Shown here piece after piece: positions 14,480 to 19,128 of a stretch of DNA of 50,047 nucleotides. Source of the DNA: Thermoplasmata archaeon (GTDB taxonomy: Archaea; Thermoplasmatota; DTKX01; VGTL01); the NCBI GenBank assembly GCA_038851035.1, contig JAWCLH010000021.1:1-50047 (forward strand). The letters are read 5' to 3'. The notes under the pieces were generated by a model. That model was not told where the DNA came from. It saw only the letters and a program-made list of their open reading frames with translations, and made no database searches. The number at the start of each line of letters is the position of its first letter. Positions within the stretch are counted from its first letter, which is position 1. Made by a program: the position numbers and the translations under genes.

Positions 14480-14709
14480 CCCGACCTCCTGTCTACATCA
14501 GCAGTGAGACCGGCTTTTCTGCAGTATATGAGGGGGCCATCTTCAGAAGTCTCCAGCAAACGCTCGACAATGGGGGTGTGACCAAGGAGGAGGGGCCGGG
14601 GGCGAAGACCAGAGCGCTGGGAATGGGCGCGCCTTTGGTTTAGCAGCCCCTCAGGCTTGGTTTTTTCACTCGGAGTACCCTTGAATTGCTCTATGCACAG
14701 ATGGTCCAT
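14476..14709 (-). CDS. Small protein (77 aa) overlapping the GTPase 3' end, unknown
   Basis: This frame begins with ATG at 14709 inside the last codons of the GTPase gene and ends in an ATGA overlap with the next small gene. The N-terminal half is basic; the second half (LLGHTPIVERLLETSEDGPLI) looks like a folded segment. No ribosome site is seen, so expression would depend on coupling to the GTPase. Part of the support is that a strong ribosome site for the next gene lies within its 3' end. It may be non-coding. Confidence 0.3.
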   Translation of the reverse strand: MDHLCIEQFKGTPSEKTKPEGLLNQRRAHSQRSGLRPRPLLLGHTPIVERLLETSEDGPLIYCRKAGLTADVDRRSG

Positions 14710-15275
14710 CGAGATCCGCTCACTGAAGCGCCGTCCAACACCGACCCCGCCAGCTTTCTGAGGAGTCGCTCGAACGAGTTGTGCACATTCTGTCCTGTAC
14801 GCGCGCTCGCCAGTCGCAGCTCGCAACCGAAGCCGGCGCAGATGTCCTTGAGAAACTCGATATCCAGCCGCTTCTTCTCTAAAATGTCCATTTTGTTGAG
14901 AACAAGGACGACCGGGACTTTGCCGGCCTCCTCTCTCAGGTCTTCCAACCAGTCTATTGTTCCATAGAGCGTCTGGGGGCGGGTGGCATCCGCCACGACC
15001 ATTGCCCCATGGGAGCCTCGGAGGAAAAGCCTGTGGGCTCTGAGAAACCTCCTGTGGCCGGTGATGTCCCATACGCAGAGCTTCAAGCGGATATCGAGCG
15101 CGCAATCCGGAGAGCTGATGAGGACAGTTTTCCCAGAGACGAGAGTGCCTACTGTGGGACGCTGCTCGGGGTCGAAGGTGCCGCTGAGGTATCTCCTTAC
15201 TAGTGATGTTTTTCCCACTCCAGCGTCGCCAAGCACGCAGACCTTTCGCACGAGATGGTTTGTCCTTCTCTCCAT
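14691..15275 (-). CDS. Ras/Rab-like small GTPase
   Basis: The 194-residue product has the small GTPase motifs in order: P-loop GDAGVGKTS (16-24), switch I Thr near 41, G3 WDITGH (69-74), G4 NKMD (127-130) and G5 SAR (157-159). G3 has His where Ras and Rab have the catalytic Gln, so hydrolysis may be slow or partner dependent. The frame is open to 15398, but ATG 15275 gives the canonical N-terminus and is preceded by GGGAGG. A TATA-like ATTATTTAAATGA lies at about 15342-15354. Such archaeal GTPases are usually paired with roadblock proteins; none is recognisable here, though two small unknown genes follow. Confidence 0.88.
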   Translation of the reverse strand: MERRTNHLVRKVCVLGDAGVGKTSLVRRYLSGTFDPEQRPTVGTLVSGKTVLISSPDCALDIRLKLCVWDITGHRRFLRAHRLFLRGSHGAMVVADATRPQTLYGTIDWLEDLREEAGKVPVVLVLNKMDILEKKRLDIEFLKDICAGFGCELRLASARTGQNVHNSFERLLRKLAGSVLDGASVSGSRWTICA

Positions 15276-15341
15276 CCATCCTCCCTTGGTCTTCAATCCG
15301 CGCTCCCGCCGGCCTCGCAAATATACGTCGTCGGACTCATC

Positions 15342-15354
15342 ATTTAAATAATTA
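15342..15354 (-). promoter_or_regulatory. TATA-like box of the small GTPase gene
   Basis: On the minus strand AATTATTTAAATGA lies about 70 bases before the ATG at 15275 at the edge of the AT-rich intergenic region. The leader would be about 45 bases. Confidence 0.35.
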
Positions 15355-15357
15355 ACT

Positions 15358-15374
15358 GGAAAAATTAACAGCAA
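15358..15374. repeat. 17-bp inverted repeat, left arm
   Basis: GGAAAAATTAACAGCAA is present here and in perfect inverted form at 15607-15623, 232 bases away. Confidence 0.9.
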
Positions 15375-15421
15375 GCTATTAATACTAGAAAGAATCACCG
15401 TCGAGAAAATTGTTGGGATTT

Positions 15422-15435
15422 GACCAAATTTGGTC
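15422..15435. promoter_or_regulatory. Perfect 14-bp palindrome, possible operator
   Basis: GACCAAATTTGGTC is a perfect palindrome inside the AT-rich intergenic region between the GTPase and caspase-like genes. Its size fits a site for a dimeric regulator. Confidence 0.5.
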
Positions 15436-15606
15436 GATTTTCAAGAGCTTTCGGGTCATTTTTACGCTGATAATATCTTAATATAAAATTAAGAACTTGA
15501 TTTAACAGGCATTAATTTATAAAAATGTTATATTCCATAATCTATTTTTAACATTTTATATATTATTTAATTTTTAAATTATTAAGATTGCACTATCATA
15601 AATAAT

Positions 15607-15623
15607 TTGCTGTTAATTTTTCC
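15607..15623. repeat. 17-bp inverted repeat, right arm
   Basis: TTGCTGTTAATTTTTCC is the exact reverse complement of 15358-15374. No target duplication is visible outside the arms. Confidence 0.9.
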
Positions 15624-15626
15624 CGA

Positions 15627-15640
15627 AGATAATAAAAAGG
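15627..15640 (+). promoter_or_regulatory. TATA-like box of the caspase-like gene
   Basis: AGATAATAAAAAGG lies about 62 bases before the ATG at 15696; the leader of about 35 bases carries an AAGGGAG ribosome site. Confidence 0.4.
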
Positions 15641-15695
15641 GGCTGTGGTGTCGAGTTTGCGCCTCCTGAACAGAGGGGGCAGGAAAGGGAGAAAC

Positions 15696-16448
15696 ATGGA
15701 AACTGAGAAAAACGGGGAGAATAGGAGATGGGCAGCTCTTTTTGGGGCCCTTGTGGGCCTGATGCTGCTCGGAATGGGACTGCCCGCTGGAGGTGCCGTG
15801 GAGTTGGACTCGAAGGACTACGCCTACGCGGTCATCTTCGCGGTAGACGAGGACGGAGATTACGGGCCGATAAATGAGGGCTGGGCCCTGCACAACTGGC
15901 TAATCGACCACGGATGGCTCGATAGCCACATAACCTTCCTAGCGGACCATGACGAGGCCGACGGCCCAGCGACCAAGGAGAACCTGCGGGGCGCGATCGA
16001 GTACATCGCCAACCACTCCAGCTCGGAGAGCAAAGTGTTTATTTCTGTGATGGACCATGAATCATGGATAAATGGCCATTGTTATATTCAGACTAAAAAT
16101 GGTCTAGTCTCAGTCCTAGAGCTACGAGATTGGATTAACGATATCGCAATCTACAAATCGATGACCATTGAGCTCAGTTCCCGCTACTCGGGCGCGTTCA
16201 TCGAGGACCTCAGCGGCGAAGACAGGCTCATCGTGACCAGCCACACCTACTCGGAGAGCTACACGCCCAACCACTTCCTGCTGTCCGAGAGCCTGAGCGA
16301 CCCGGCCGCGGACACCAGTGGCGATGGTTTTGTCTCCGTCCAGGAGGCGTTCGCGCATCAAGCCAACAAAATACAGCAGCAGTACCCCGGAACCCAAACG
16401 CCGCAAATCGAGGACAGCGCCGGAACCGTCATCCTTGACGTCGCTTAA
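15696..16448 (+). CDS. Secreted caspase/C13-like protein lacking the catalytic Cys
   Basis: ATG 15696 follows AAGGGAG and opens a signal peptide (WAALFGALVGLMLLGMGLPAGGA). The 250-residue protein has the clan CD peptidase pattern: YAVIFAVDEDG, then a helix and LADHDEAD, a strand with VFISVMDHE (the His position), and IELSSRYSGAFIEDLSG with IVTSHTYSESY (the position of the Cys-x-Ser-Gly motif). Where active relatives have Cys before [YF]SG, this protein has Arg, and no other Cys is in the motif, so it should be proteolytically inactive. Near the C-terminus DTSGDGFVSVQEAF is a calcium-binding EF-hand-like loop. Bases about 16030-16170, between the His and the lost Cys, are poorer in GC than the rest. 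It overlaps the convergent STAND gene by 20 bases. Confidence 0.72.
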   Translation: METEKNGENRRWAALFGALVGLMLLGMGLPAGGAVELDSKDYAYAVIFAVDEDGDYGPINEGWALHNWLIDHGWLDSHITFLADHDEADGPATKENLRGAIEYIANHSSSESKVFISVMDHESWINGHCYIQTKNGLVSVLELRDWINDIAIYKSMTIELSSRYSGAFIEDLSGEDRLIVTSHTYSESYTPNHFLLSESLSDPAADTSGDGFVSVQEAFAHQANKIQQQYPGTQTPQIEDSAGTVILDVA

Positions 16449-19128
16449 GGGCTATGTCCCGGAGGAGGTCCTTGACCTCCTCCACTCTCTTGCGGGCCTT
16501 GCATTGTTGAAAAAGATGTAGGGCTTCCATTAAGATAGCATTGGCTTTATCCAGTTCCCCGCTGTTTTTTAGAGCCTCACCATAATAAAATAATTTCATT
16601 GCTATTTCGTATGGTATTGAATATTTTCTTAATATCGTTAAACTCTTTTCAAAATAAGAAAATGATTTTTCCCAATCTTTCATTCTTGCATAGACTTGTC
16701 CAAAATTAGAAAATCCACCCGCAATACTTAATTGATCCCCCGTATCTTCTGCAATTTTCATAGCTTTTTGAATACATCGTAATGCTTTATTAAAATCTCC
16801 TTTTATAGAGTAAGGGTCTGAAAGATTCATCAATGAAACAATCATTCCTTTTTTATTTTGCGTTTTTTTCGAAAGGAGATAACATCTTGTCCATGCTTTG
16901 ATCGCGTTGTCATAATCCTTCAGATCCAAGTACTGAATTCCCAAACTATTATACGCCCTCGCCATTGGATGAATCCACTTCCTCGCCTTGAAGAGCTCGA
17001 TTGCCCTATAATAATAATCTATCGCCTCCTCATATTTTCCGAGGCAGTTGTACACAAGCCCAAGGTCAATGTAGGTCTCCCCCCTCTCTGCCTCCATGTT
17101 CTCCGCCTTGAGGAAGTCCAGGCTCTTTTTCAAGTACGTCAGGGCCTCCTTGAACTCACCCTTCCTCCAGTAGACCTTCCCAATACCGCGGTATATCTCT
17201 CCGAGGGTGGGGATGTCGTAGAGCTTCAGGGCGCGCTTCTCGGCTAAAAAGTACTTCTTCAGAGCCCTGTCGTACGCCGCCTGCTCCCTGAGGGCGTGGG
17301 CCATCGCCGCCAGAATTCTGCCCTCTTCGGGGGGGTTCCCTTTCACATTGGCGAGCGCTCTATCGAGGTATATCTGGGCCATTCTCCACTCGCCCGAGGC
17401 GAGCGCGAGCTCAGACTTGATTTTGCACTCTGCAACAATACCCCGCGACGGTATGTCGACCCTCGCGGCCTCTTTGAGGAGCTCGTTTATCCGGTCGCTG
17501 AAGCCGGCCTTGAGCAGAGCCCTAACATGCTGGGCCCCGAGTTCCAGCGCCTCGACAATCCTGTCCGCAGCGGTGAGATGGTCTATAGCAGCCGCTATGT
17601 TCCCGTCGTTCTTAATGGAGAGGTGGTAATTGGCTGCGACTTGATGGTATCGCTTCCTGTCCTCGTGCTTCAGGGAGCGGTACACCGTGTCCACGACGAT
17701 ATCGGGGAGAGAGAACACGCCTGGAGGCGCCTCATTCACAAGCCCCGTCCTGACAAGCCTCTCGACTGCCTGAACCGTCGCCTGGGGAATCTGGAGGGCG
17801 CTGAACGGCACAGGGATTTTGAAGACGCTCAGGCAGCTCAGGACGGTTCTCTCGTCCTCGGAAAGCTTGGCGATAACCTCGCTCTCGATGAACTTTCTGA
17901 AGTCCTTCACTGCGCCGGACAAGCCTGAGCGGATAATCAGCTCGATGAAGAGAGGGTTGCCCCGCGTCAGCTCGTTGACCCTCTTCGCCGGGAGGGAGAA
18001 GGCTTTTCCAAGCTGGAGCATCTGCGCAACCTCGCTCTCTTTGAGGCCCCTTAGCTCCATCTCCCTCACGAGCTCCTTCAATAGGATGTCGCGTGGGTCG
18101 AAAACCCCGACCAATGGTTCGCGGGAGGTCGCTATGACCTTGACTTGGGTGGCGGCCCGTGGTGCGCGAGAGCCCTCCTGATGCGCAAAACTCAGGAAGA
18201 ACTTTAACATCGGTCTGAAGTCGATTTGGAGCTTATGCAGGTCGTCAAAAACGAACAGAGCCCTCACACCGCACAGGTCCCTCTTCAGTATTTCAGCGAT
18301 TTGCTGCATCGTTATCGGATTGAGTTCTGTTCGGAGGACATGCTCCAGTGTTCTATGTCCGCGTCTCGCGAGCAGCTCCGCCACGGGCTCGAGCAGGTTG
18401 CGCAGAGTGTCCCACTCCCGGCAGGAATGGAAGGCGACTGAGAGGTCGCCGGTAAGGCCCCTGATGAAGCGCGATACGAGTGAGGTCTTACCTATCGCGG
18501 CCGCGCCCGTCAATGAAAAGAGCCGGGCCTTCGGGTCGGCCAGAAACGAGGCGAGCTCCTTGAGTTCGGCCTTCCTCCCGACGAAGTGGGGGATGTCGAG
18601 GATGGCGTTTCGGAGGTCTATTATCTCCGGTCTGGCCAACCGTGGAGCCTCCGGCCTAGCCGGCTTCTCCCGGATTGCGTCGGCGCGGAGGCCATGGCGC
18701 TCATCCGTCGCCGTGAGCAGGGCGAAGAGGTTCCCCTCCATCCTCAGAGCCTTGCTGAGCTTTCTAAGACTCCTCACGGTAACTGTGCCATCGAGGCTGG
18801 TGAACCTAACCTTGCGTCGCAGAATCTCCTTGACCTCGGTCGCGGCAAGCTTCGCCCCGGCCTCGGTGAGAGAATAGGAGAGAGGGCTGCGCCTGAGGCC
18901 CGGAATTCTTACGCGTGAGGATGCCACCGAGCCCTCTGCGGTCAGTGAAGTAAGGAGCTTGCTGAGTCTGGGAACGCTGACGCCAAGGGCTTCGGCCATT
19001 CCCTTCTGCGTAAAGTCCTCAGGCCTCGCCTTCTTCCCAGCCCACATCTTCGTCTCCCTGAGGCTGTGGAGGTAGAGCAGAACCCGAACTTTTGGAGGGA
19101 GCGAGTCCCAAATGCTGGTGGGAAGCAT
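16429..19128 (-). CDS. STAND-type ATPase regulator with N-terminal HTH and C-terminal TPRs
   Basis: The 899-residue protein has a winged-helix domain (about residues 35-110; FTQKGMAEALGVSVPRLSKLL), a linker, then an AAA/NB-ARC type NTPase starting HFVGRKAELKEL (181-192) with Walker A GAAAIGKT (208-215) and Walker B LFVFDD (291-296) and a TSREP sensor segment. From about residue 590 to the end are ten or so tetratricopeptide repeats (for example YLDLGLVYNCLGKYEEAIDYYYRAI). This is the layout of MalT-like and archaeal STAND regulators in which TPRs bind the signal and ATP drives oligomerisation. The DNA encoding residues 723-876 (16500-16960) is strongly AT-rich, unlike the rest. It converges and overlaps with the caspase-like gene. 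Confidence 0.88.
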   Translation of the reverse strand: MLPTSIWDSLPPKVRVLLYLHSLRETKMWAGKKARPEDFTQKGMAEALGVSVPRLSKLLTSLTAEGSVASSRVRIPGLRRSPLSYSLTEAGAKLAATEVKEILRRKVRFTSLDGTVTVRSLRKLSKALRMEGNLFALLTATDERHGLRADAIREKPARPEAPRLARPEIIDLRNAILDIPHFVGRKAELKELASFLADPKARLFSLTGAAAIGKTSLVSRFIRGLTGDLSVAFHSCREWDTLRNLLEPVAELLARRGHRTLEHVLRTELNPITMQQIAEILKRDLCGVRALFVFDDLHKLQIDFRPMLKFFLSFAHQEGSRAPRAATQVKVIATSREPLVGVFDPRDILLKELVREMELRGLKESEVAQMLQLGKAFSLPAKRVNELTRGNPLFIELIIRSGLSGAVKDFRKFIESEVIAKLSEDERTVLSCLSVFKIPVPFSALQIPQATVQAVERLVRTGLVNEAPPGVFSLPDIVVDTVYRSLKHEDRKRYHQVAANYHLSIKNDGNIAAAIDHLTAADRIVEALELGAQHVRALLKAGFSDRINELLKEAARVDIPSRGIVAECKIKSELALASGEWRMAQIYLDRALANVKGNPPEEGRILAAMAHALREQAAYDRALKKYFLAEKRALKLYDIPTLGEIYRGIGKVYWRKGEFKEALTYLKKSLDFLKAENMEAERGETYIDLGLVYNCLGKYEEAIDYYYRAIELFKARKWIHPMARAYNSLGIQYLDLKDYDNAIKAWTRCYLLSKKTQNKKGMIVSLMNLSDPYSIKGDFNKALRCIQKAMKIAEDTGDQLSIAGGFSNFGQVYARMKDWEKSFSYFEKSLTILRKYSIPYEIAMKLFYYGEALKNSGELDKANAILMEALHLFQQCKARKRVEEVKDLLRDIALKRRQG

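Follow-up and report, generated by a model that had tools for sequence, protein, structure and literature searches.

What is a stretch of 301 bases, strikingly rich in A and T and carrying a perfect inverted repeat, doing between two divergent genes of a GC-rich archaeal genome? The island lies at 15340-15640 of the window, that is, of the whole 50,047-nucleotide stretch analysed here (contig C21). The original prediction offered three candidates: a small mobile element of MITE type, a regulatory hub of the divergent genes and an origin-like unwinding element. Our analysis indicates that the island is very probably an intergenic region from which two archaeal promoters diverge, and that the AT-rich stretch is what separates them. 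The features of the locus are as follows.

14691..15275, minus strand: Ras/Rab-like small GTPase, 194 aa, ATG at 15275; downstream of copy 1
15342..15350, minus strand: TATA-like box TATTTAAAT, in the same register as at the two unlinked copies; predicted start site near 15320
15358..15374, minus strand: copy 1 of the 17-mer TTGCTGTTAATTTTTCC, putative upstream element of the GTPase promoter
15375..15606, no strand: AT-rich spacer between the divergent promoters, ~230 bases, with a core at 15463-15606 of 15% GC
15422..15435, no strand: 14-bp palindrome GACCAAATTTGGTC, found nowhere else in the genome
15607..15623, plus strand: copy 2 of the 17-mer TTGCTGTTAATTTTTCC, putative upstream element of the right-hand promoter
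15631..15639, plus strand: weaker TATA-like box AATAAAAAG, spaced alike from copy 2; predicted start site near 15660
15696..16448, plus strand: secreted protein, 250 aa, with an N-terminal hydrophobic segment, ATG at 15696; downstream of copy 2

Results

Composition and symmetry of the island

The GC content of the island is 23.6%, against ~61% for the genome, and falls to 0.153 in the core. Within a background of ~430 kb of stretches sampled from the 2.69 Mb genome (sample mean 0.607), the 300-bp interval starting at 15341 has the lowest GC content. Other low-GC intervals of the sample come near it, at 0.243 to 0.29, and the runners-up that were examined lie inside genes. The earlier description of the island as nearly all A and T slightly overstates an A+T content of 76%. 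The spacer matches no RNA family in Rfam. Its extreme AT content over 230 bases is not explained by the operators proposed below.

AT-rich patches were also seen inside genes. An 899-aa AAA/TPR regulator-like protein is AT-rich in its C-terminal TPR part (16500-17100, GC 0.32) and GC-rich in the remainder, and further intragenic patches lie at 2790-3200 of L013 and 17600-20000 of L050. Together, these patches suggest mosaic genes.

The sequence GGAAAAATTAACAGCAA at 15358-15374 has its exact reverse complement at 15607-15623, so that the 17-bp perfect inverted repeat is found exactly where it was first reported. An exact inverted repeat of at least 17 bp arose in 1 of 3,000 dinucleotide-preserving shuffles of the island. 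The palindrome GACCAAATTTGGTC is likewise present as described. A palindrome of at least 14 bp was reached in ~13% of such shuffles; its length is expected by chance in DNA this rich in A and T and is not significant. A role for it as a second operator is possible but unsupported.

Four copies of the 17-mer in the genome

Exactly four copies of the 17-mer TTGCTGTTAATTTTTCC are present in the genome, where rough hand arithmetic from base composition gives ~0.001 or fewer chance copies. Two of the four are the arms of the island. The other two, found by searching the genome for the same terminal repeats, are single and unlinked:

Contig C3, 75376-75392: copy 3, single
Contig C17, 55741-55757: copy 4, single

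No further copy appears in this genome with one or two mismatches, and at three mismatches the three matches compare with four for the reversed control, which is background level. A 55-column profile built from the four sites with their flanks recovers all four at E values of 1.5e-8 or better, the next best hit in the same genome having an E value of 1.9, and yields nothing significant in the four nearest relatives of the class. The identical 17-mer is absent from the 389 other genomes of the phylum; scattered, isolated one-mismatch matches occur in nine of them (390 genomes were searched, including this one). The same site was found in none of the relatives, hence there is no phylogenetic footprint. 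Searches with the 16-mer plus a TATA-like box in the genome-contig collection, and with the 17-mer plus a TATA-like box in viral contigs, gave no matches.

Promoter-like anatomy at the four sites

All four 17-mers have one orientation, each shortly upstream of an ORF. A TATA-like box lies in the same register at every site and starts some nine bases past the 17-mer, with a range of eight to ten; the aligned TATA-like regions are TTATTTAAAT, GTATTTATAT, TTATTTATAT and TAATAAAAAG. How many sites there are, that they are unique, and how they are oriented and spaced from the box are direct observations. On the downstream side of the 17-mer the four promoters read as follows.

GTPase promoter: AGTTAAT-TATTTAAAT
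C3 promoter: AGCAAGG-TATTTATAT
C17 promoter: AGTAAGT-TATTTATAT
Right-hand promoter: CGAAGAT-AATAAAAAG, the weakest box

The same sequence therefore stands in four perfect copies at several promoters, with fixed orientation and distance to TATA/BRE at all four, most weakly at the right-hand copy in the window. The C3 copy has the fullest form, a dyad TTGCTG-N10-CAGCAA whose right half falls on the BRE position. At the right-hand promoter this right half is poorly kept (CCGAAG) and the box is weak. Transcription would be expected to start 25-27 nt beyond the box centre, at all four sites shortly before the ORFs, whose start codons on the other two contigs are these:

C3 PAS gene: TTG 9835 or ATG 9823 of L013
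C17 ORF: ATG 9806 of L014

In the C17 case, the open ORF has its first ATG ~10 nt past the expected start site. In this genome, the 7-mers most overrepresented upstream of genes are AT-rich ones such as TTTAAAT and ATATTTA, and the GC content in front of genes falls at positions -30 to -60. Given this general enrichment of TATA-like 7-mers, the boxes can plausibly be taken for promoters.

Given this anatomy, the two arms are best read as a pair of divergent promoters that have one upstream element in common. It is therefore misleading to say that the repeat frames a unit; the 17-mers mark promoters. In addition, the 17-mer looks like a landing site for a regulator because it also stands before two other genes. 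Of the three candidates, the regulatory hub finds support, the arms being one element in back-to-back promoters that recurs singly before two ORFs. The sequence evidence fits a promoter-proximal operator that would serve a small regulon, with two copies placed back to back where the promoters diverge.

Genes downstream of the sites

About eight Ras/Rab-like small GTPase paralogues occur in the genome (contigs C36, C24, C6, C5, C13 and C14), and two relatives of the same class carry 12-13. Further on, beyond the GTPase gene in the window, lies a PAS/MetOD1 protein, and the ORF downstream of the C3 site also encodes a PAS protein.

The secreted protein has a weak, sub-threshold match to peptidase C13, of which it may be an inactive relative. 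By eye, it apparently lacks the catalytic His-Gly and Cys, with DHES and RYSG there instead. The genome-contig collection contains no close homologues, and the AlphaFold model, with a mean pLDDT of 39, is uninformative.

The C17 ORF (P0001) is cut by the end of the contig, which has no exact overlap with other contig ends that would complete it. Its residues 56-73, ALFRPDAYVVLRILRALW, match the start of an HTH_45 winged-helix protein; over these 18 residues the identity to an HTH_45 protein from another genome of the phylum is 61%. The ORF has no Pfam match, its coding score hardly differs from that of a frame on the opposite strand, and its first 50 residues look atypical. Its reading as a winged-helix regulator, based on an 18-residue match in a contig-truncated ORF, is a lead, not a result. 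PADLOC placed none of the four proteins tested in a defence family. On the same contig (L014, 9440-9520), an inverted and direct repeat cluster of ATATATCC/ATATATTTT was observed upstream of a beta-propeller surface protein, ~250 bp from the 17-mer.

Discussion

Alternative explanations

The strongest alternative is that a promoter segment was spread to four places by recombination, so that the copies would be identical through common descent rather than because a regulator constrains them. We consider this unlikely. The 17 bases are identical at all four sites, spacer included, which is sharper than most operators and exceeds the needs of a simple dimer site; promoter-segment copying could account for it. 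The similarity between the C3 and C17 sites also runs on through the TATA box (14/18). However, the 17-mer is unchanged in all copies whereas the flanks, past ~16 nt in each direction, are unrelated, and a recent duplication would leave longer shared flanks. Even a duplicated segment would remain a shared promoter module.

MITEs of archaea are short AT-rich segments with terminal inverted repeats, and the island resembles them in both respects. Its arms form the perfect terminal inverted repeat of a 266-bp segment that is AT-rich and non-coding, the 17-mer is found again elsewhere in the genome, and IS-like genes at contig ends seem to be present more than once. According to this explanation, the copies on C3 and C17 would be solo ends left behind. 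Unlike archaeal MITEs, however, the island occupies a single locus: a comparison of its DNA with the genome gave matches confined to the neighbourhoods of the 17-mers, and both the interior and the two-armed unit are single-copy. The flanks AAATAATTAACT and CGAAGATAATAA show no target-site duplication. Moreover, among the left arm, C3 and C17, the similarity extends outward past the tip (12-14/18 identical) no less well than inward (7-10/16). The outward similarity crosses the tip of the arm and takes in the TATA-like box, the opposite of what the edge of an element would show, and the single copies lie just upstream of ORFs in promoter orientation. The mobile-element candidate is thus very unlikely. 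As a separate observation, the contig ends of L127, L140, L162 and L170 break within integrase-like C-termini that resemble one another (YNYRRPHWSLRLEECETPFQAFIRK and relatives), which makes it probable that several copies of an IS family are present.

A replication origin or DNA-unwinding element is the least credible candidate and very unlikely: the locus has inverted repeats and the lowest-GC 300 bp of the sampled 430 kb, but the repeats are accounted for as promoter elements common to two other unlinked promoters, the cumulative GC skew does not turn at 15.3 kb, and the two Cdc6_C matches (Cdc6/Orc1 genes) lie on contigs C3 and C38, in agreement with the earlier remark that the window contains no Cdc6/Orc1 gene, which leaves the origin with no positive evidence.

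A possible four-promoter regulon

Under the preferred reading, that of divergent promoters sharing an operator, the 17-bp element of each promoter would stand immediately upstream of the BRE and touch it. We infer from this layout a binding protein and the sign of regulation. Since the C3 element is a dyad, a dimeric regulator is suggested; perhaps of winged-helix type, it would bind the 17-mer beside the TFB/TBP site. There it could help to recruit TFB/TBP, resulting in activation, or occlude them, resulting in repression. In archaea, an activator usually sits directly upstream of the BRE, from where it recruits TBP or TFB, whereas a repressor binds over the core promoter or downstream of it (PMC5512572). 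Activation is therefore modestly favoured, as the element is upstream of the BRE and in contact with it.

Because there are four such promoters in the genome, the regulon would be small, comprising the Ras-like GTPase, the secreted C13-like protein, the PAS-domain protein and the HTH_45-like ORF. The truncated HTH_45-like ORF may itself be the autoregulated regulator. The full version of this proposal, a lineage-specific regulon of four promoters in which an autoregulated HTH_45 protein couples a Ras-like GTPase, PAS sensing and a secreted C13-like protein, is tentative, and we rate it as possible rather than probable.

If true, it would provide a first handle on the transcriptional control of archaeal Ras/Rab-like GTPases, in a little-known archaeal class. 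The preferred reading turns what appeared to be a mobile element or an origin into a defined cis-regulatory site, all of whose occurrences in the genome are listed, and it delineates a small archaeal regulon, testable and built around a eukaryote-like small GTPase. More generally, when a perfect inverted repeat lies between two genes that diverge, the explanation can simply be a single promoter element that occurs twice.

Comparison with known archaeal systems

Known archaeal regulators offer partial parallels. EarA of Methanococcus maripaludis binds the fla promoter at sites immediately upstream of the BRE (PMC5512572). These are activator sites, and the 17-mer shares their position; there, four 6-bp sites lie at one promoter, whereas here one 17-bp site lies at each of four. 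In Thermococcales, TFB-RF1 recognizes TCTG-N5-CAGA (TCTGAANTTCAGA) beside a weak BRE, in its own operon and one other (PMC5937170). Like that motif, the 17-mer has a CTG...CAG half-site dyad just upstream of BRE/TATA and serves very few promoters, the regulator's own included (here a candidate). In contrast, the half-sites are spaced by 5 there and by 10 here, the sequences differ, and the binding protein of the present site is a putative one. TFB-RF1 is a precedent for a tiny regulon to which the regulator's own operon belongs. In haloarchaea, GvpE acts through a 20-nt UAS adjoining the BRE/TATA of both divergent promoters, gvpA and gvpD (PMC9501494). Here, too, the same short element adjoins the BRE/TATA of two divergent promoters. 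The GvpE elements overlap in a 35-nt intergenic region (PMC9501494), whereas the two copies in the island are ~230 nt apart, and the present element also stands at two unlinked promoters. In place of gas vesicle genes, the ORFs found here are those of the GTPase and of the C13-like, PAS and winged-helix-like proteins. GvpE is nevertheless the close architectural precedent for a single element at two divergent promoters.
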